Shown here piece after piece: positions 1 to 8,950 of a DNA stretch of 8,950 nt; the stretch's first letter is position 1, and the number at the start of each line of letters is the position of its first letter. The stretch covers positions 1 through 8,950 of the forward strand of contig CAAEDZ010000382.1 of the NCBI GenBank assembly GCA_900754775.1, written 5' to 3'. The position numbers and the translations under genes were made by a program. The DNA is from Clostridia bacterium. Lineage in GTDB: Bacteria > Bacillota_A > Clostridia > Christensenellales > Aristaeellaceae. The notes beneath the pieces were generated by a model that worked only from the letters and a program-made list of their open reading frames with translations, searched no databases and was not told where the DNA came from.

Positions 1-3000
1 CCAACACGTTTTCGTGAGCCATATTGGCGCGGACGGAAACGTTCTGAGAAGCGGTGACGCTGCCCATCAGTTCCGCGCGCAACGCATCGTCCAGGGCGAT
101 GACCGCCGCCGAAACCGACACGCCCACATAGCCGCCACCCGCGGTGACGGAGAGCGCGCGCACGCCGTATGTTTCAAGGTTTTCGCCCAGTTCCTTGGCC
201 AGGCCTTCGGTGACGCTCTGCGCCTGCTGCGTCTGCGCATCCGGTTCCTGGGAAGCGGACGTGGCCTCGATCAGCACGTCGCCGCCCGCCTCAAGGATCG
301 CGCCCTCGCCCACGAGCGCCGCGATGTCGGAATAGGTAACGATTACAGCCACGCCAGCGCCCACACCAGATACACCAGATACGCCGAGCGTACCGGTGAT
401 CATATCCGCGGTAAGTAGCTGGTTGGCGGCGACGCGAATATCGCCGCTGGCAAAGGCGAAACTACCCGCGCCGACGGTCGCGCCTGCGCCGCTCATGGGC
501 GCGTAATCGCGCTTCACCTGCCCGAGTTCCGCCGCGGCGTTCAAATCGCCGTTCGCGTCGCTGTCTATCTTGTAATTCTCGCCCTCCCCTGCCGCTTTGT
601 CGCCGGTAGCGGAGGCAAACTCATCGGAGACGTAACCCTCGGTCACGTCCACGCCGTCTTCGCCGCCCACCTGCAAACCAGCGGTGCTCTGGCCGTCGCC
701 CGCGAGGTCTTCGTCGAGCGTCATGCCTTGCAGCGCCTCGTGCGCGGCAGCGTTGCCCACCGCAAAGCTCTGCAGGAACGCATCGATGTCAAGGCCGCCG
801 GAGGTGCGGTTGCCCTGCGCGTCGTATTGCATCAGCAGCGCGTCGCGGGCGTCCTGCTGCAGTTTATCGCCGATGACCGTGACCATGACGGTCGCGCCCA
901 CCGCCGCCGTGCCGGAACCAGAAACGCTCCCGGCGTAGCTGGCCACGTCGCGCTCGGCTTTGGCCGCTATGTTGACGTCGCCTGCGAGGGCATAGACGAT
1001 ATTGTTGAGGCCAAGACTGGCCTCGACGCTATTTTTCAGCACGTTGACCATCGCCGTGACGCCCACCGCCGCCGTGCCCGAAGCGGCAATGGTGGCCGCC
1101 TCGCCGAAGAAATCATAAACGTCGTTGGCTGTCACGTCCACGCGCGCGCCGCGCAGTGTCGCGCCATCCAGCGTACCAGCGCGCGTCTGCCGCTTGGATA
1201 CGGTAACGGACACCGTGCCGCTCACCCCACCCACCGCCGCAGCGCTGACGCCGTTGGCTGCGGTGACGATATTTTGCTTGGAATCCGCGGCAATCTTCAC
1301 CGCGCCCGCAGCCTCGAGGACCGCGTCCGCGCCTACAATGGCTTCGGAAGCGCCGTTGAAGTACGTAACGATGGCAATGGGGCTGACGGCGGCATTGCCC
1401 GCGCCCGCGAGCGCCGCGCCGATGTTGTAAAGTTCGATATCGCCCAGCGCGGCAATCTCCACATCGCCGCCCGCAGTAAGGTTGCCGCCCACGTTGGCGG
1501 AAACGGTGTCTTCGAATACCAGCGCGTTCGTGCCCGGGCTAACCGCTGCCGTGCCCGCAATGCCAAAGGAGAGCGCGGCGAGCGCCACCTGCGCGCGCGA
1601 CTGCGCCGCCACGCGGATATCGCCGCTGGCAAAGGCTGCGCCGTCATCGCCGATGCGCGCCTGCACGCTGTTTTGCAACACTTGCACCACCACGGTCGGC
1701 CCGACGCCTACCGCGTTACCAATGTCCAAAGCGCCCGCGAAGTGATATAAATGTGTTTCTCCTTCCGCGTCGACGCTCACTTCCTGCGCGTCGCCCGAGC
1801 CCTCTGCCTGCGCAAACTGCCCTTCCGCCGCGCTTGCGCCGCCCGCGCTGCTAGCGTTGATCCGCACGCCGTTTCCGACCTGCGCATGGATGCGGTTTTG
1901 CACCACCGCCGTGCTCACCACGCCAGCAATGGAAGCCGCGCCAACAGAGAGCGCGCCGCTAGCCGCGCCCATATAGAGCTTGAAATCGCCGCCCGCATAC
2001 ACGGTCACGCCCCGACGGCGCTCCGCGCGGTTGGGAATGGCGATGCCCGCCTGGCTGACCCCCGAAATGGAGGGCATGGAAACCGCCGCCAGCCCAATGA
2101 GATCGGAAAGGTCGCCGATTTTGGCGGTAACGGCATTTTCCACGACCATGGTATGCACGGTCGCGCCCGCGCCCACCGTGCCGACACTGACCGCGCCTGC
2201 GCCGCCGACCGCGCCCAGCGCACCGGAAGCGTCGGCGACCACGCCGACGGAATCCCCGGCGCGCACGGTAACGGCTTCGCCCAGTTCGGCGGTGGCTTCT
2301 GTGCGGCTGACAGTGGTCAACACCACGCCAGAGAGCGCCGCCGTGCCGCCCGTGGCCGCACCGGCGACAGTAACGTCAAAGGAACGGTTGTTGGCCAGCG
2401 CCGAAAGCGAAACATTGCCATTTTTCGCCGTAAGCGTAGCGCGGTCGCTCGCGCGAGCGATGACCGACTGCGTGAACAGATGCGTATTGACGCTCGCGCC
2501 GAGGGCGACAGTGGCATTGCCCGCCGTGGCCGCCAGCATACCGGTGATAAACTGCGCGTCATTTTTGGCGCGGATCTGCACATGGCCATTTTCGGCCGTG
2601 AGCGCGCTCCCTTCCAGCGCCTCGGCGCGGGTCTGCGAAGTGGTAATGGCCACTCCGATGGTACCCGCGGCCGTAGCCGTGGATGTGCCTGCACCGGAGG
2701 CGGAAGCCAGAATGTTGAGAAGCGCGTCGTTGCTCGCTGCCTGAATCAGCACATCGCGCGCGGTGACGACGCTCTCCTGGCCCGCCTCGGCAATGGTGGC
2801 GTTTTCATGGATGAGCACGGCGACAGTACCGCCCGCGGCCACGGCCGCGCCCGTTCCCAGCCCCACATCCGCGGAGATGAGGGTAAACTTCGTATCGTTT
2901 TGCGCGTTCAGAGCGAACGCGCCGTCTGCATCGATGGTTGCGCCATCGCCCAGCACTGCCTGCGCGGTGGTGCCGGTGAGGATGACGTTGACGCCGCCGC

Positions 3001-6000
3001 CGATGGCGGCTCCGCCCGTGCCCGTAGCCACCGCGTCCGCCGTGGTCACAGCCCAAATGTCGTTCTGCGCAGTGGACTGAATGGTGACGTCACCCGCGGC
3101 GGTCACAGTGCTGCCGGCGCTCACGGCCGCGTTTGCGGCGTCGCGCCGCTCAGCCACGGCAATGGTCGCGCCCACGCCCGCCTTGGCGGTGGAGCCGGAG
3201 ATAGAGCCCGCGATGACGCGCGCTGAGGCCGCGCTGCCCGCCTCGACGCGCAGGCTTTCCCCCGCGTTTGCGCCGAGGATGAGTACGACGTTTTCACCCA
3301 CATCTGCCCGCGCGTCGTTTTCCGTCAAGAGCAGCGCCACCGTACCGGCCAGCGCCGCCTGGCTGGCGATCCCGGCCTGTACCGTGCCGGAGATGGCCTC
3401 GACGTAGTAATCGACTGTGGCCAGGTAGTTGATCATATCCAGCACGTCGAGGATACTGTCCGTGCTGATGGTGGTCTCAAACTTGAGATCGGTAATGTTG
3501 CTGATGTCGTTATCAATGGTGAGGTTAAACAGCCCCTTGTCTTTGTCCTCGGTCGCGCCGACCGTGAAGAGGTCGGAAATGTCGAAGGGGAACTTGTACT
3601 GGCTCTCGTCCATGCGCTCGCGGCGGGCGACAACCTTCAGCGATTCCGCCGTGATCTGCGCGCCATCGCCCACCAGCGCGTGGACGATGTTGCCCGCGTA
3701 GAGCAGGGCGAAGGACGCGCCGAAGCCCGCCGTCTGTCCGCCGCCGATGCTAACGCCAAGAGCGCGCACGCCGAGCTTGCTCATATCCTGCGCGGTGACA
3801 GAGACGTTTTGGGCCGTGATAGCAGCATTTTCCGCGATCTTTGCCACGGCCTGTGCCTGTGCGGAGAGCACGGCAACAGCGCCCGCGACGTTGAGCGTGC
3901 CGCCCGGACTGGCGGCGATGGCCGGAGCAACAGCCTGCGCGCCCAGATAAGCGATGTAATTGCCGTCCAGGTTCTGGGTGGTGGCGGCGGAAACGTCGAG
4001 ATCGCCCTCCGCCTCCACATTCCCGGAGACGGTAGCTTCCGCGCCGTTGCGGTTGATGGTGATCGCCGCCGCGGTGCCCACCACATTGGCGATAGCAGCC
4101 GAAGTCGCCGTTGCGCCGGTGGCGCGGGTGCGGAAATTGGCGCGGTTTTCGGCATGCGCCTCCACGTCCCCGCCGGAGATGACCTTTCCGGTGATTTCCG
4201 CCGTGGCCGCGTGGGCGTTATAGGCAACGCCGATGGCGGCGGCAACGTTGAGCGTGCCGGAATTGGCGGCAATCTGCTGCGGCTGCGCCGCGCTGCCGCT
4301 CTGCGCACCCGCTGCGGCGGTTGCCGACGAGGCCGGCGTTGTGGCACGCGCGGTGGCTGCGTCCAGATCGACGTTGAATACGCGCAGGATGTTGCTCGAA
4401 AGCGGCAGGGAATCGCTGGCCTGCTTGAGGGTGCTCATGGACTTGCCGACCAGGGGCGTGCCCTTTTCGCTGAGGGCAGTGGCGATCTTGCCGCTCAGGT
4501 TGCTGGGGCCCGCGCCGGGGCTCACGTAGTTGAGACCCAGGCGGAACTTCTCCAGCACGCGGTCGAGACTCGCGCCGATGCTGGTGGCGACGGCGTTGAC
4601 CTCGTCGGTATTCTTCGTCAGCGCGTAGACGCGCACGCTGCCCGCGGCGTTGGTGGTATCGGCGCGCAGGGCGGCAAGCACGTCGCTACTCATCAGGCTG
4701 ACGGCCACCGTCGCACCCACGGCAGCGCGCGAACCGGCGGAGAAGGCCTTGCCCTCAGCGTAGGAATCGCCACTTTGCATGGCCTGCACCGCTACGTTGG
4801 CATGCTTCGCGCCCTGCGCGCCCTCGCGCAGGGTTTCGATGGTATCCGTGGGATTCGTCGTTTCCACCGTCGCACCCGCTTCCACCAGCGCCTTCACCGT
4901 GCTTTCGACGATGGCGAGCGCCACAGAGGCGTCGGCAGAGATGCCCTTGGTATTGGTGCCGGCATTGGCGGCTTCGGCCTGCTTCTTGAGCATCGCCGCG
5001 TTCCCGGCGTTGCCCAGCGTAGGCACAGCCCGCAGCGCCGTGTCGCGGCGGGCAATGGGATCGCTGCCGGCGATGGAGATGGTGTCCACGTCGTTGCGCA
5101 GGCGAGCGAACACGTCCAGCGAAGCGGCCGTGAAATCACGGCCCGCGCCCAGCGTGGCGAGCACATCCGTGGTGAGCAGATTGAGCGCGAAGGACGCGCC
5201 CACGCCCACGGAAGTGCCGGGGTTATGGATCGTGCGAATCTTGGCGGCGTCGCCCAGTACCTTATCCGCCGAGCCGCTGGCCGTTGTATAGACCTTCTGC
5301 GCCTCGTCCGCGCGGATGGCGGCATCACCGGTGAGTACAATGGTATTGTCCTGCGCGGCTACAGTAGCCTCAGAGCGGGCGTTTACCACGCCAATCGCCA
5401 CCGCGCCCGCCACGCCGACGCTGGAAGCGCCCACGCCAGAAATCGCTTGTGTGGAAATCCTGTGGCCAACGCCATCCATCTCTCCGCCGCTACCAAAGCG
5501 CGCAGAGAGCAGCTCGATGAGCGCCGTATAGGTCTTTTCCGTGGCCATCACCAGCGCCGGGTCGGGCTGCCAGCCGACGTTGTAAATCTCCAGCCAGGCC
5601 TGCGGATTGGCGAGCGAGGCGAACTGATCCGCAAGAAGCGTACCAAATGCGGCGGGATAGAGGGAAGCCGATTGCAGGACGCTCTCTTCCCCTGTCAACT
5701 GCGCCATGGCCTCCTCCACGATCATCTCGCGAATGGCCTTCATGTTCTCCGCGTCCGCCTCCATGCCCAGATAGGCATTGAGCGCGGCCTGGTCTTCGGC
5801 AGAAAGCGTCTTGCCCTCAGCAAGGTCGCAGGCCAGGTCGATCATGCGCTGCTTGTGCGCTTGCTCAGCGCGATAGGCGTCGATTTTCGCGATCAGTTCC
5901 TCGATGAGCGGCGCGCAGAGGTCGCCATAGAGCGTTCCGTCAGGCGCGGCTTCCTGCTTATAGTGCGCACGCAACGCGTCGCGCACGTAAGCTTCCATAG

Positions 6001-8950
6001 CATAAGCATGGTCGCGGGTGAGGGGCGTACCGGCGTAGTCGCCTTCCCAAGTGGCGAGGATGAAGTCGTCCACGCGCTCACGCAGCGTCACCTCGTCCCC
6101 TTCCGTCCAGAGGGCGCGGTCGATCAACTCGTCTACGTACTCGGCGATGCGCACGCGCTCCTCCTCCGTCCAATCGCTCTTTTTGAGCAATTCGTCGAGC
6201 TGGTGGGCGGCACTGCTCTCATAGTCGCGCGCGCGAACCCTATCGATGACATCGCCCATAGCGCCATTGGCGGCCAGGAACTGCACGAGATCCTCAAAGG
6301 CCCTTTCCAGCGCCTGCGCGTCTTCTTTTTCGTAGATCTCCGCCGCTACGGTCAGCGAGCGGCCCGAGACGCTCCCCGTGCCCAGATAGGCGAGGTTTTC
6401 ATGGGTGACAGTGTTGATGGCCACGGCCACGCCGAGGCCATAGAGGCTATCGGTGGCGCTGGCGTTGGCGGCGATCACCGCGTCCGTATCGTTGCGGGCG
6501 AGGACGGTGATATCTCCAAGGGCAAGCACGCTGTTTCCGTCGAAAACCTTGGCGCGGGAAAGGTTGCTCTGGATGTTGACCGCCATGGCCGCGGCAACCT
6601 GGATGGAGCTTTCCGAGGTCTGCGCGCGCTGGCGCGAGGCGGCAGCGGTGGAGACGTTCTGCGTATTGACATTTTTCGTATTGACATCACCAGCCAGCTT
6701 ACCGCCGCGGGCGAGCGCTTCGTCGGCCTGCTTATCGGCCTGATCCTTGACGTCCGGATTGACGGTGGTGCCGGAAGGAGCGGTTTGGCCGCTGAGCACG
6801 CCGTCGCGTTCCTCTGTGGTACTGGAAGGCGTAGTGGAGCCGCCCGAAGAAGCGGAACTCGCGGGCAAAGCGCCGCTAGTAGAAGCTTTGACGGTTTCAT
6901 CCAGGCGGCTGACGCTGTCCGCGTTCACGAGCACATCGCCGCCGGCTTCGAGACCGCGCAGCACGTCCGCGGTGGCGCTGTCGTTAAAGACGCTCACCGC
7001 CAGCGCCGCGCCCGCGCCCACGCGGGCGCCCGCCGCCGCGGCGTCCGCGGTCAGTGTGCGCTCAATGCTGCTGTGCGCGGTAACGGCGATGTCGCCAAGC
7101 GTTTGCGCCATTTCGCCGCTCTTGCCCAGATAGGCTTCGACCATCACACCGGAGATGTCCGTGGCAGCCACGGGCGTAGCGGAGATGCCGCCGGACGCGC
7201 CCGCCGCCGCGCGCAGTTCCTCCGTACCGGAGAAAGCGGCCGCAACGCGAAGGCTATTGAGCTTCTTTTGATTGTTAAAATTCACGTTGTCTTCAACCAC
7301 GGCGGAAACGTCCACGCCAATGACGCCCACGGCAATGCCCGCGCCAACGCCAACGCTGTCCGCGCGATAGGTGGGCATATCGATAAGCGGTATATCTATG
7401 GGGCCTAGCGCGAGTGCCTTGCGCACGCGCTTGCCGCTGGCGTCGCTGATGGTTTCAAAGAAGCCGTGGCCAATCACAGATTCCACATTGACCGCGCCAT
7501 TAAGCACATACCGGGCTGCATTGGCAAGGCGCGCTTCGTTGCGCACGGAGGCGATGTGCACTGCCACCGCGCCGCCGAGCCCAAAGGTGGACGTGGCGGG
7601 AATATGGCCCGCTTTGGCGGCGGCGGAGGATTCCACGCGGCGGCTAAGGGCGGAAACGTCCAGGCCGTCGCCCGCGCTCACCGCGCCATTTTGGGCGATG
7701 GCGCTCACATCGTGGCCGAACACGCCAATGGCCACGCCGACACCCGCAGCGTTGTTGCTGGGATCGAGCGTGCGCGTAACCGAACCGATGCCGGGCATGG
7801 TGACGATGGAAGCGTTTTCATAGAGAGAACCGTCCGCGCGCTGGCGCGAAGTGGTGTCTCCCGCGGCGCGCAAGGAAATCTCCTTTGCCGCGCGAACGCT
7901 GCCGGAGGTGTTGATGAGGGCGCTGACCTCGTTATCGATAACGGCAATGGAAAGCGCGCCGACGAACTGCGTACTCGCCTGCGTGACGGCGTCCTTGGGC
8001 TGCTCAGTGGCGGAATCGAACTTGAGGGCGAGGCGATTGCTGCCCGTAATGCCGCCAATCAGCTTGGCCTTGACGCTATTCACTTCCTTGGGCACATGAC
8101 CGAGGATCTCTTCCACTGTGGTCACAAGGCTGAGGACGGTGGCGGTCTGCGTAGCTTTGACCGGATTGCCCTCCGAATCATAGATCGTGTTGCCATTCTC
8201 ATCCACAGCATAAACGCTCACAGGCGAGGAGATAGCGTAGGTACGCGTGCTGAGAATGCCGTCGGCCTCGACAGAAACGTTGCACGCCTGGCTGATGACG
8301 GAAGCGGCGTCCAGCACCTGCGCCATGGTCTCGGCAAAGGCGAAGTTCGCGCTGAGGAAGATGCCGCTGCGCGCCGTGGGCATCACCACATCCGTGGGCA
8401 CGGCCATGCTCACCGCGTAAGAGGCGGCGCGGCTGCGCGCGTCCACGCGCGCGTCACCACCGGCTTCGATTTTCGCATTACCGGAAACGATGGTCTTGGT
8501 GTCCGCGGTGACGACGTTGCCCGCCAGGGAGACGTTGAACTTGGGGAAGCTGCCATCGTCAAAGGTATTCACATAGACGAACGTATCGCTCATCAGGCGC
8601 GCGCCCGCGCCCGCACGAATCTGCGCTTCGCCCCCGAGCGTCACTTTGGCTTCCACATCGCCCATGCCGAAGGAAAGCGGGATGAGCGAGAGCAAATCGG
8701 CGGCATCGAATTCGTTGCGGGCCGTGGCCAGCGCGTGGACAAAGCCATTCTTCGCCGTGATGGTGCCGAGGATATCCACATTCGCCGAGCTAAGCTTCAC
8801 CACCACGAAGTGCGGGATGCTGATGGACTCAAAGAGCGAAGGATCGATATAGGCACCGTTCTGCAACGTGCGCGCGCGCAAATCGACAAAACCATCCGCC
8901 GCGATGGACGCGTCCGCGCCCACGGAGATGGAAGCCGTTTCCTTCGCCTC
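1..8950 (-). CDS. Giant beta-strand-repeat surface/secreted protein, LktA-like filamentous adhesin type (internal fragment, both ends missing)
   Basis: The minus strand is open over the whole window. Codons run from 8950-8948 down to 4-2, giving 2983 residues (about 290-300 kDa) with no stop and no frameshift; the register is the same at both ends. Start and stop lie outside, so neither a signal peptide nor a C-terminal anchor can be assessed. The sequence is a long series of degenerate repeats. Each has a core like G-x-A-A-V-G-V-x-x-x-V-x-V-x-x-N-x-V-x-A-x-[IL]-G, followed by a G-G-D-V-x-I-x-A strand. This pattern suggests a beta-solenoid stalk. I count three Cys and six Trp. By recall it resembles the huge secreted beta-strand-repeat adhesins and the LktA leukotoxin family; LktA itself is an exported protein of more than 300 kDa. 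Several non-repeat inserts interrupt the stalk (listed separately). Likely role: adhesion or host/cell contact at the surface (inferred). Partner export genes, if any, lie outside. The coding frame is near certain; the family name is tentative. Confidence 0.9.
2..493 (-). repeat. Last visible beta-strand repeats, with Gln/Glu-rich loop
   Basis: Residues 2820-2983. The cores are GVSGVGAGVAVIVTYSDIAA and GGYVGVSVSAAVIALDDA, with strands GGDVLIEATS and QNVSVRAN. A 32-residue loop at 167-262 (SQEPDAQTQQAQSV, then EGLAKELGENLETY) is Gln/Glu-rich and helix-like. The frame is still open at position 2, so more protein follows outside the window. Confidence 0.65.
494..868 (-). other. Acidic Gly/Asp-rich insert domain
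   Basis: Residues 2695-2819 (125 aa). It begins right after a normal core (GTAAVGATVMVTVIG) with a helical stretch (DKLQQDARDALLMQYD) and passes through NAAAHEALQGMTLDEDLAG. It then becomes acidic and Gly-rich (VGGEDGVDVTEGYVSDEF, TGDKAAGEGENYKID), and ends before a new strand (GAGSFAFASGDIRVAA). It carries a degenerate Ca-binding-type loop at 527-565. No family recognised. An acidic ion-binding module on the stalk is plausible but inferred. Confidence 0.6.
527..565 (-). other. Degenerate EF-hand/dockerin-like loop DSDANGDLNAAAE
   Basis: The 13-residue loop has Asp at 1 and 3, Asn at 5, Gly at 6 and Leu at 8, as in EF-hand and dockerin Ca-binding loops (D-x-D-x-N-G-x-L/I). Position 12, normally Glu or Asp, is Ala, and a Glu follows at 13. 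It is therefore a near match rather than a full motif. It could bind Ca weakly or be coincidental in an acidic region. Confidence 0.4.
1739..1855 (-). other. Acidic loop insertion with locally atypical codons
   Basis: Residues 2366-2404 (39 aa): a Gly/Ala/Ser start, then an acidic stretch (AQAEGSGDAQEVSVDAEGE) and an aromatic/His end (THLYHF). The end uses GGA, ACA and the only TTA codon in the whole frame. It lengthens one repeat of an otherwise compact array, so it is probably a surface-exposed loop. Confidence 0.5.
2009..2077 (-). other. MP-containing loop with basic patch in the main array
   Basis: A 23-residue loop beginning MPSISGVSQAG and ending NRAERRRG breaks the strand pattern. The RAERRRG patch is among the most basic short stretches in an otherwise neutral to acidic stalk. 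Similar Met-Pro loops occur near 7810 (TMPGIGSV) and near 7360 (DMPTYRADSVG). It could be an exposed loop or a proteolytically sensitive site; this is not shown. Confidence 0.4.
3380..3628 (-). other. Aromatic and Asp-rich non-repeat insert
   Basis: Residues 1775-1857 (83 aa). It opens with a charged stretch (ARRERMDESQYKFPFD) and continues with Asp/Asn/Thr-rich strands (LFNLTIDNDISNITDLKF). It closes with a hydrophobic, Tyr-containing helix-like part (ILDVLDMINYLATVDYYVEA). Composition differs clearly from the Ala/Gly/Val repeats on both sides. I do not recognise a family. It sits exactly between two repeat blocks, like the other inserts. Confidence 0.6.
3629..4273 (-). repeat. Beta-strand repeat block 3 (about 4 units)
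   Basis: Residues 1560-1774. The cores are GTLNVAAAIGVAYNAHAA, AIANVVGTAAAITINRNGA, GTLNVAGAVAVLSAQAQA and TAGFGASFALLYAGNIVHA. The GTLNVA[AG]A start occurs in units one and three, suggesting a two-unit higher-order period here. Intervening strands include GGDVEAHAEN and EGDLDVSAA. Confidence 0.7.
4274..4567 (-). other. Helical insert followed by Ala/Ser/Gln low-complexity linker
   Basis: Residues 1462-1559. The first 71 residues (LDRVLEKFRLGLNYV and onwards, then GKSMSTLKQASDSL) look helical and polar. The last 27, at 4274-4354, are low complexity (TTPASSATAAAGAQSGSAA, then PQQ). The linker recalls the Ser/Thr linker at 6614-6889. Each linker separates an irregular segment from a fresh run of repeats, so the pair may mark domain borders. 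Confidence 0.6.
4568..5476 (-). repeat. Beta-strand repeat block 2 with short helical interruptions
   Basis: Residues 1159-1461. The cores are SVGVAGAVAIGVVNARSEA, SVGVGASFALNLLTTDVLA, ISADASVALAIVESTVKA and RAAVGATVAVSLMSSDVLA. Between them are longer non-strand loops, for example LKKQAEAANAGTNTKG near 4960 and IETLREGAQGAKHANVAVQA near 4820. The unit spacing is therefore about 70-95 residues rather than the ~56 of the compact block. Confidence 0.65.
5477..6340 (-). other. Charged, Trp-containing, predicted alpha-helical domain inserted in the repeat stalk
   Basis: Residues 871-1158 (288 aa). The composition changes abruptly from Ala/Gly/Val/Ser/Thr to Glu, Asp, Arg, Lys, Leu, Met and Tyr, with amphipathic helix patterns such as AQALERAFEDLVQFLAANG, RIAEYVDELIDRA, PLIEELIAKIDAYRAEQ and KAIREMIVEEAMAQL. 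Five of the six Trp in the entire frame are here (SDWTEE, LWTEGD, ATWEGD, AWLEIY, GWQPD), as are two of the three Cys. There is no frameshift and the codon style matches the neighbours, so it is an integral in-frame domain. I do not recognise it as any named family and see no enzyme motif. It could be a folded binding head displayed on the stalk (inference), or simply a long helical loop. Confidence 0.75.
6050..6172 (-). repeat. 21-residue internal duplication in the helical domain
   Basis: Two consecutive segments start with Trp-Thr-Glu and end in a Val-Asp-x-x-Ile helix: WTEEERVRIAEYVDELI and WTEGDEVTLRERVDDFI, spaced 21 residues apart. By eye, 8 of the first 20 aligned positions are identical. 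A possible third, weaker Trp-Glu-Gly start follows. The pattern suggests a short helical repeat within the domain. Confidence 0.5.
6341..6613 (-). repeat. Two beta-strand repeats before the helical domain
   Basis: Residues 780-870. The cores are IQVAAAMAVNIQSNLSRA and YGLGVAVAINTVTHENLA, each followed by a strand (GDITVLARND; GRSLTVAA). The last strand runs directly into the charged helical insert, so the insert is placed at the strand-to-loop position of a normal repeat. Confidence 0.65.
6614..6889 (-). other. Low-complexity Ser/Thr/Gly and polar linker
   Basis: Residues 688-779 (92 aa). The first part is rich in Ser, Thr, Gly and Pro (GALPASSASSGGSTTPSS). It continues into a Lys/Asp/Gln stretch (KDQADKQADEALARGG) and then an Asn/Thr stretch. 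It lacks the hydrophobic alternation of the repeats, so it is probably a flexible hinge between stalk segments. A processing site or a glycosylated Ser/Thr patch is possible but not shown. Confidence 0.7.
6656..6685 (-). repeat. 15-bp imperfect tandem repeat encoding VNTKN-VNTQN
   Basis: Two adjacent 15-bp units (6671-6685 then 6656-6670 in reading order) both begin GTCAATACG and encode VNTKN and VNTQN. A third degenerate start (VST) follows. The repeat lies at the end of the polar linker, where an in-frame expansion or contraction would only change linker length. Confidence 0.75.
6890..7966 (-). repeat. Beta-strand repeat block 1 (about 6 units)
   Basis: Residues 329-687. Recognisable cores are FVGALSIAVIDNEVSA, AAGVGVAIGVFGHDVSA, GLGGAVAVHIASVRNEA, SVGVGAGIAVGVIGVDVSA, a weaker one near 7190, and RVGAGAALAVSVFNDSA. 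Spacing is uneven (about 55-75 residues) because some loops are longer. Cores alternate with strands such as GDGLDVSAL and GDIAVTAHS. Units are similar in pattern but not in DNA, so this is an old, diverged array. Counts are by eye. Confidence 0.7.
7967..8950 (-). other. Irregular strand-rich section at the N-terminal side of the fragment
   Basis: Residues 1-328 of the visible protein. It contains alternating strand patterns (SISVGADASIAADG, NAKIEAGGDARVDARS, CNVSVEADG) typical of haemagglutinin-like beta-helices. The AAVGV-type core that dominates later is not obvious here. One of the three Cys of the whole frame is here (SQACNVS). The section could be the lead-in to the repeat stalk, or the C-terminal part of an earlier, different domain. 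The window edge prevents a decision. Confidence 0.5.
8159..8212 (-). repeat. DENGN / DSEGN paired octapeptide
   Basis: The peptide YAVDENGNTIYDSEGNPV contains two adjacent eight-residue units, DENGNTIY and DSEGNPVK (the Lys is just beyond the range). Asp-x-x-Gly-Asn turns of this kind occur in surface-protein turn or Ca-binding loops. Here it sits between two strand-rich stretches, in a short polar loop. No function is claimed. Confidence 0.45.

Follow-up and report, generated by a model that had tools for sequence, protein, structure and literature searches.

Long repeat filaments with non-repeat domains in mid-chain are described for the two-partner secretion (TPS) exoproteins of the CdiA and FhaB type, and in CdiA an alpha-helical secretion-arrest domain lies between the repeat parts, according to the portions of the literature used here (PMC11630599). 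Giant surface proteins with a beta-solenoid part are also described for Gram-positive bacteria, namely Giant1-5 of Apilactobacillus kunkeei and the SRRP adhesins, and Giant4 is presented in the relevant part of that account as a solenoid with multiple short loop insertions on one side (PMC12863079). In the same part of the text, Giant1-3 have the solenoid as an N-terminal head and helical repeats as the rod (PMC12863079), whereas in the protein studied here helices form an insert in a repeat stalk. The likeness to Giant1-5 and the SRRP adhesins is one of description. No literature on the giant proteins studied here was found among the matches listed for open-licence PMC articles.

The window, i.e., the whole stretch of 8,950 nucleotides that was analysed, consists of a single stop-free open frame of 2983 aa on the minus strand (2..8950). 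Both ends are open and the frame is an internal piece of a giant gene for a repeat protein, presumably displayed at the surface. The stalk repeats match the LktA_tand_53 model (NF012206) in 13 stretches with 82.7 bits, compared with a curated cut-off of 50, which makes the frame a member of this repeat family. Pieces from relatives score below the cut-off (24.1 bits for a piece of G092 and 44.2 bits for P0004). The model describes a 53-aa repeat only and the helical domain lies outside it. What the frame has in common with LktA-type leukotoxin is likewise the repeat family only, and we do not claim a toxin. The repeats of the window were mapped with our own repeat profile (36 profile positions) and span nearly the whole frame, with a spacing of mostly 17–55 residues. 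The stalk is presumably beta-helical, as suggested by the repeat family and not by a model.

Six gaps of at least 80 residues could be identified between the repeats. Five of these (residues 172–330, 678–781, 871–1176, 1444–1566, and 1776–1864) start immediately after a repeat has reached its final profile position, while the sixth (residues 2695–2822; 485..868, minus strand, as for all coordinates below) is in a different register and interrupts a repeat. The gap of residues 871–1176 is the largest (306 residues) and holds the helical domain. Smaller insertions in the same repeat register are found at residues 1444–1566 (4253..4621) and 1776–1864 (3359..3625). The loop of residues 678–781 (6608..6919) carries a degenerate ADKQAD..L....LAG...N......RQ.AxTxE motif common to the insert bearers, and it lies before the two repeats that make up the upstream flank of the domain (residues 776–870; 6341..6625). 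Few parts of the stalk are as conserved as these two repeats. The downstream flank (residues 1163–1215; 5306..5464; HRISTQAISGVGASSVGVAGA...) was the probe that found the site-bearing relatives.

The helical domain itself covers residues 871–1158 (5477..6340, read from 6340 to 5477 on the minus strand), and the plus strand is non-coding there. It contains five of the six Trp residues of the frame (927, 948, 968, 1119, and 1127; the sole Trp outside is 1966) and two of its three Cys residues (1012 and 1041; the sole Cys outside is 223). The chance of finding at least five of six Trp within 288 of 2983 residues is 4.5e-5 (hypergeometric), a figure calculated after the fact for a segment that was picked for its Trp. 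Charged residues account for 28.8% of the segment and for at most 19.8% of any other 288-aa stretch of the frame, and these counts agree with the sharp change in composition reported in an earlier sequence-only reading of this DNA. The insert of the window, counted as 292 aa, has a net charge of -34, and no membrane span was predicted in it by hydropathy (maximum 0.94).

That reading had also placed the borders of the segment at repeat borders, and this agrees with the repeat map. On the N-terminal side a repeat (profile positions 3–36 of 36) ends exactly at residue 870. On the C-terminal side the conserved downstream flank starts at residue 1163 and the next repeat at 1177, and the border can therefore be placed to within a few residues. 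The segment is confirmed as a discrete charged, acidic, and helical island within LktA_tand_53-type repeats.

AlphaFold2 predicted nearly all helices for the segment, both alone and with its flanks, and no continuous beta-solenoid, in line with the helical module proposed earlier. The domain alone (305 residues, six sequences) was modelled with 12 helices and two 2-residue strands at a mean pLDDT of 65.3. A pLDDT of at least 70 was reached by 155 of the 305 residues, while residues 1–13 and 223–305 were below 50. The model of residues 776–1282 (five sequences, mean pLDDT 49.9) has helices at model residues 100–377, corresponding to residues 875–1152 of the frame, with pLDDT below 50 from model residue 349 onward. 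We take the segment to be helical, with a confidently predicted core of about half of it. Most flank blocks had pLDDT below 35 and the flanks thus received no confident prediction. The earlier description of the stalk as a beta-repeat structure holds for the repeat family, and the models of the flanks lend it no further support.

None of the resources searched gave a convincing match to the domain, in line with the earlier description of it as unrecognised. The best Pfam match to the 288-aa segment had 14.0 bits (cut-off 25.6), and neither NCBIfam nor PHROGs gave a match. Solved-fold searches with the domain gave no match above background, the viral fold library gave none at E ≤ 0.001, and a PDB sequence search gave only matches of E 0.33 and worse. 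A PDB sequence search with 1536 stalk residues gave none up to E 0.1. The profile, fold, and PDB-sequence searches established neither a fold nor a motif for ligand binding. The suggestion of a new domain can be kept insofar as the segment is unnamed in these libraries, but it is not unique in kind, being the largest of six long gaps and lying at a site that occurs across a bacterial family.

The closest relatives of the segment are in Candidatus Pullichristensenella stercorigallinarum and Candidatus Pullichristensenella stercoripullorum (both 81% identity), where the frame is open over 8619 and 5567 aa, respectively. Other relatives show 72% identity over 250 residues (P0004), 44% over the whole segment (G092), ≈34% (P0005), and 27% (P0009), and two sequences (P0010 and P0011) are pieces nearly or wholly identical to the window. 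The frame of the window belongs to the giant genes of clostridia near Pullichristensenella, a genus placed by NCBI in Clostridia incertae sedis and which we take to belong to Christensenellales. The Christensenella group has been linked to host health. P0004 and P0005 have a signal-like N-terminus as judged by eye. The P0004 frame, on an 832-kb contig, loses its match to the other sequences and terminates within the helical domain, owing to either a faulty assembly or a genuine break. Open frames of 13,007 aa (G110, contig C8) and 11,244 aa (G151, contig C11) were also seen, and G110 has two giant frames on one contig.

Inserts similar in sequence to that of the window were found in only 3 of 200 family-sample genomes (E up to 1e-3), whereas a 220-aa downstream piece had matches in 24 of the 200 at the same threshold. 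The short downstream-flank profile matched 10 of 396 order-sample genomes and 2 of 391 class-sample genomes (E up to 1e-6; the samples overlap). The insertion site is common to a bacterial family.

Using profiles of both flanks, the insert was located in 24 sequences, five more loci, and G151, giving 30 sequences. This set excludes P0004, whose frame ends within the insert, P0009, whose upstream flank is incomplete, three of the 24 genomes with the downstream piece (G034, G128, and G187; partial matches and short frames), four off-site loci (L031, L038, L039, and L041), and 6 of 36 downstream-piece matches that had no locus. A helix-like insert of 166 to ≈592 aa is present in 29 of the 30 sequences, including four relatives with far shorter inserts of 166–176 aa. 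Helix formers are enriched in the insert relative to the flanks in all of the first 24 sequences, and for the remaining five this was a judgement by eye. Acidity is common to all 30 inserts measured. The Cys residues are not kept, as the P0005 insert has none. In G275 a 38-residue acidic linker replaces the insert, and the ADKQAD-type motif is also missing from the preceding loop (a single case). In the insert bearers of both families described below the motif is degenerate but can be recognised by eye, with the exception of the G130a locus, which cuts the motif.

The inserts represent two sequence families, A and B, which stay separate in an iterative search scored strictly against reversed and shuffled decoys; two reversed decoys also entered the B profile in this search. 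A and B merged in an iterative search without decoys, and a single sequence family is not supported. The hhalign probability is 1.2% for A vs. B, 2.4% for A with the short forms vs. B, and 7.4% for the short forms vs. B. The two families may be distant kin that have site and helicity in common. Below E 1e-3, family A (the window, G001, G002, G092, P0005, and P0009) also picks up the short forms G007 and G073, a threshold that G703 (0.0027) and G082 (0.0072) narrowly miss. The inserts of G007, G073, and G082 correspond in alignment to the C-terminal 100 residues of the window insert, and the window form is therefore ≈130 residues longer at the N-terminal side. Family B has 20 members, four of which (G151, G220, G635, and G742) belong weakly (2e-8 to 2e-5 in the first round vs. 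0.016 for the best decoy).

The sequence-only reading had raised the possibility that homologous giants lack or swap the segment. The segment does vary among the relatives and is absent once (G275), but swapping of cassettes between giants was rejected because the insert type follows the flank tree. In this tree (30 rows, 215 columns) a branch with a bootstrap of 95 separates nine family-A rows from 20 family-B rows and G275, and several inner branches are weak (42–75). The history of the insert is one of descent with divergence and length change.

In all four comparisons with the window the insert has lower identity than both flanks (G001, 81% vs. 89 and 93%; G002, 82% vs. 90 and 90%; G092, 45% vs. 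75 and 66%; P0005, 34% vs. 59 and 60%). Only in G092 is no other part less conserved. Residues 2695–2822 are less alike than the insert in G001, G002, and P0005, and so are residues 2823–2983 in G001 and P0005. The dN/dS of the insert is 0.18, 0.17, and 0.25 in three close pairs, which means that it is constrained and kept by selection, and dN/dS gave no sign of positive selection on the insert in these pairs. It exceeds the values of stalk segments 1–870, 1159–1443, and 1567–2694 in two of the three pairs, the exception being the window and G002 (0.170 vs. 0.189, 0.121, and 0.172, respectively). Among close relatives the insert is somewhat, not dramatically, faster, and group-wide it has diverged past recognition.

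We interpret the segment as a separate alpha-helical domain that is set into a loop of a long surface fibre made of repeats. It is probably a side head that varies between relatives, carried by a fibre of a known type, and no isolated case. The domain would project sideways, because the chain departs from the stalk at the end of one repeat and returns at the start of the following one. The insertion register, after the last profile position, could let the domain leave without breaking the stalk. The site is old and kept, with the domain changing more in sequence and length than the adjoining repeats, and the conserved loop located two repeats before the domain might serve the head as a docking base. 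By comparison with the loops of FHA and with CdiA, whose filament carries a receptor-binding domain, the likeliest role of such a head is ligand binding, as far as the portions of those descriptions used here go, and we put the probability of a ligand-binding side head at about 0.5. The ligand might be mucus, the host surface, or the surface of a neighbouring cell. The domain family, unnamed in the libraries searched, occupies a fixed site in giant, presumably surface-displayed proteins of Pullichristensenella-related gut clostridia. The analysis pinpoints 290 residues to test in a protein of several thousand, and the natural long, short, and near-empty forms can serve as controls.

The main alternative is a structural spacer or bundling element, where the helices would connect neighbouring fibres, keep them apart, or bend the stalk and have no specific ligand. 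Helix and acidity are kept among the inserts while sequence is not, and the ≈3.5-fold variation in insert length also fits a spacer. The 592-aa insert of G151 looks by eye like long coiled helices and has a weak resemblance (E 4.3e-6) to a phage tape-measure family. The acidity of all 30 inserts fits a spacer and a binding head equally well. The confidently packed helices and the invariant Trp and Tyr positions in family A, however, suggest a globular core and not a plain rod, and we consider the spacer unlikely. Tolerated growth of a surface loop that accepts padding and has little function would explain why five of the six longest gaps in the window are at one register and why one relative has a 38-aa linker at the site. 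It is quite improbable in view of an insert of at least 166 aa being kept in 29 of 30 sequences and a dN/dS of 0.17–0.25 among close relatives.

The genes upstream of the giant gene were inspected in 15 places, and in four of them (G011, G147, G130 on contig C37, and G073) either the start of the giant gene or a gene upstream of it was unreadable. In the 11 countable contigs we scored the nearest upstream gene of at least 200 aa on the same strand. In eight contigs (G150, G114, G151, G007, G742, G189, G058, and G088) its product is a TPR protein whose start resembles, by eye, a signal or a membrane span. The TPR genes, all on the same strand as the giant gene, are located at L055:17823-19166, L056:601-2115, L060:559-1986, L063:34-1575, L059:10056-11123, L064:2508-3746, L066:4449-5687, and L070:9045-10268. 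In the other three contigs the gene encodes a glycosyl hydrolase 3 (G155), a response regulator (G130 on contig C12), or a Listeria-Bacteroides-repeat protein (G110). The TPR gene and the giant gene could possibly form a two-gene unit. In none of the 11 contigs is this nearest gene TpsB-like. Exoproteins of the CdiA and FhaB type have an N-terminal TPS domain; the window itself stops short of the N-terminus, and in the relative P0004, where the N-terminus is included, as well as in the two G092 pieces, no Pfam family at all was matched at E up to 0.01.

These neighbours bear on the idea of an export or assembly checkpoint resembling the helical arrest domain of CdiA, for which the TPR protein in 8 of 11 contigs might be a folding partner. 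The missing TPS domain in P0004 and the two G092 pieces argues against such a checkpoint. In addition, CdiA-type arrest operates at the outer membrane, which clostridia are not known to have, and we regard the checkpoint as very improbable. An enzymatic or toxic effector domain carried by the fibre is extremely unlikely, since the discrete nature of the module is the sole point for it, no catalytic family or fold was matched, the sequence is poorly kept, four relatives have far shorter forms, and nothing was found that points to the effector head of the sequence-only reading.

A ligand-binding side head could also be part of something larger. The helical domain, the ADKQAD-type loop, and the neighbouring TPR protein might together form one export-and-binding system for giant clostridial fibres, an idea that we regard as decidedly doubtful. 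If true, such a system would fill the role of two-partner secretion adhesins but lack their TPS domain, and its head, placed at one constant docking position, would diverge beyond recognition.

A weak lead exists for the family B inserts. Five of 28 scanned inserts match, at E up to 0.1, the Pfam family 7TMR-HDED (PF07697), which stands for an extracellular domain of 7TM-HD receptors, and G189 gives the best match (8.3e-5). The scores for G189 (23.1 bits) and G155 (16.5 bits) are both under the cut-off of 27.6. The sub-threshold matches include the L018 and L030 inserts, both of family B. The segment of the window itself gave no match to PF07697 at E up to 1, and the likeness is confined to family B, whose inserts might resemble a sensor-like helical ectodomain.

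Finally, the C-termini of some giants could be inspected by eye. No hydrophobic stretch with an RRRRK-like end was seen in G150, G114, or G151. In the G742 giant (L058), the chain closes with a hydrophobic segment and then RRRRK, which might anchor it in the membrane or the wall.
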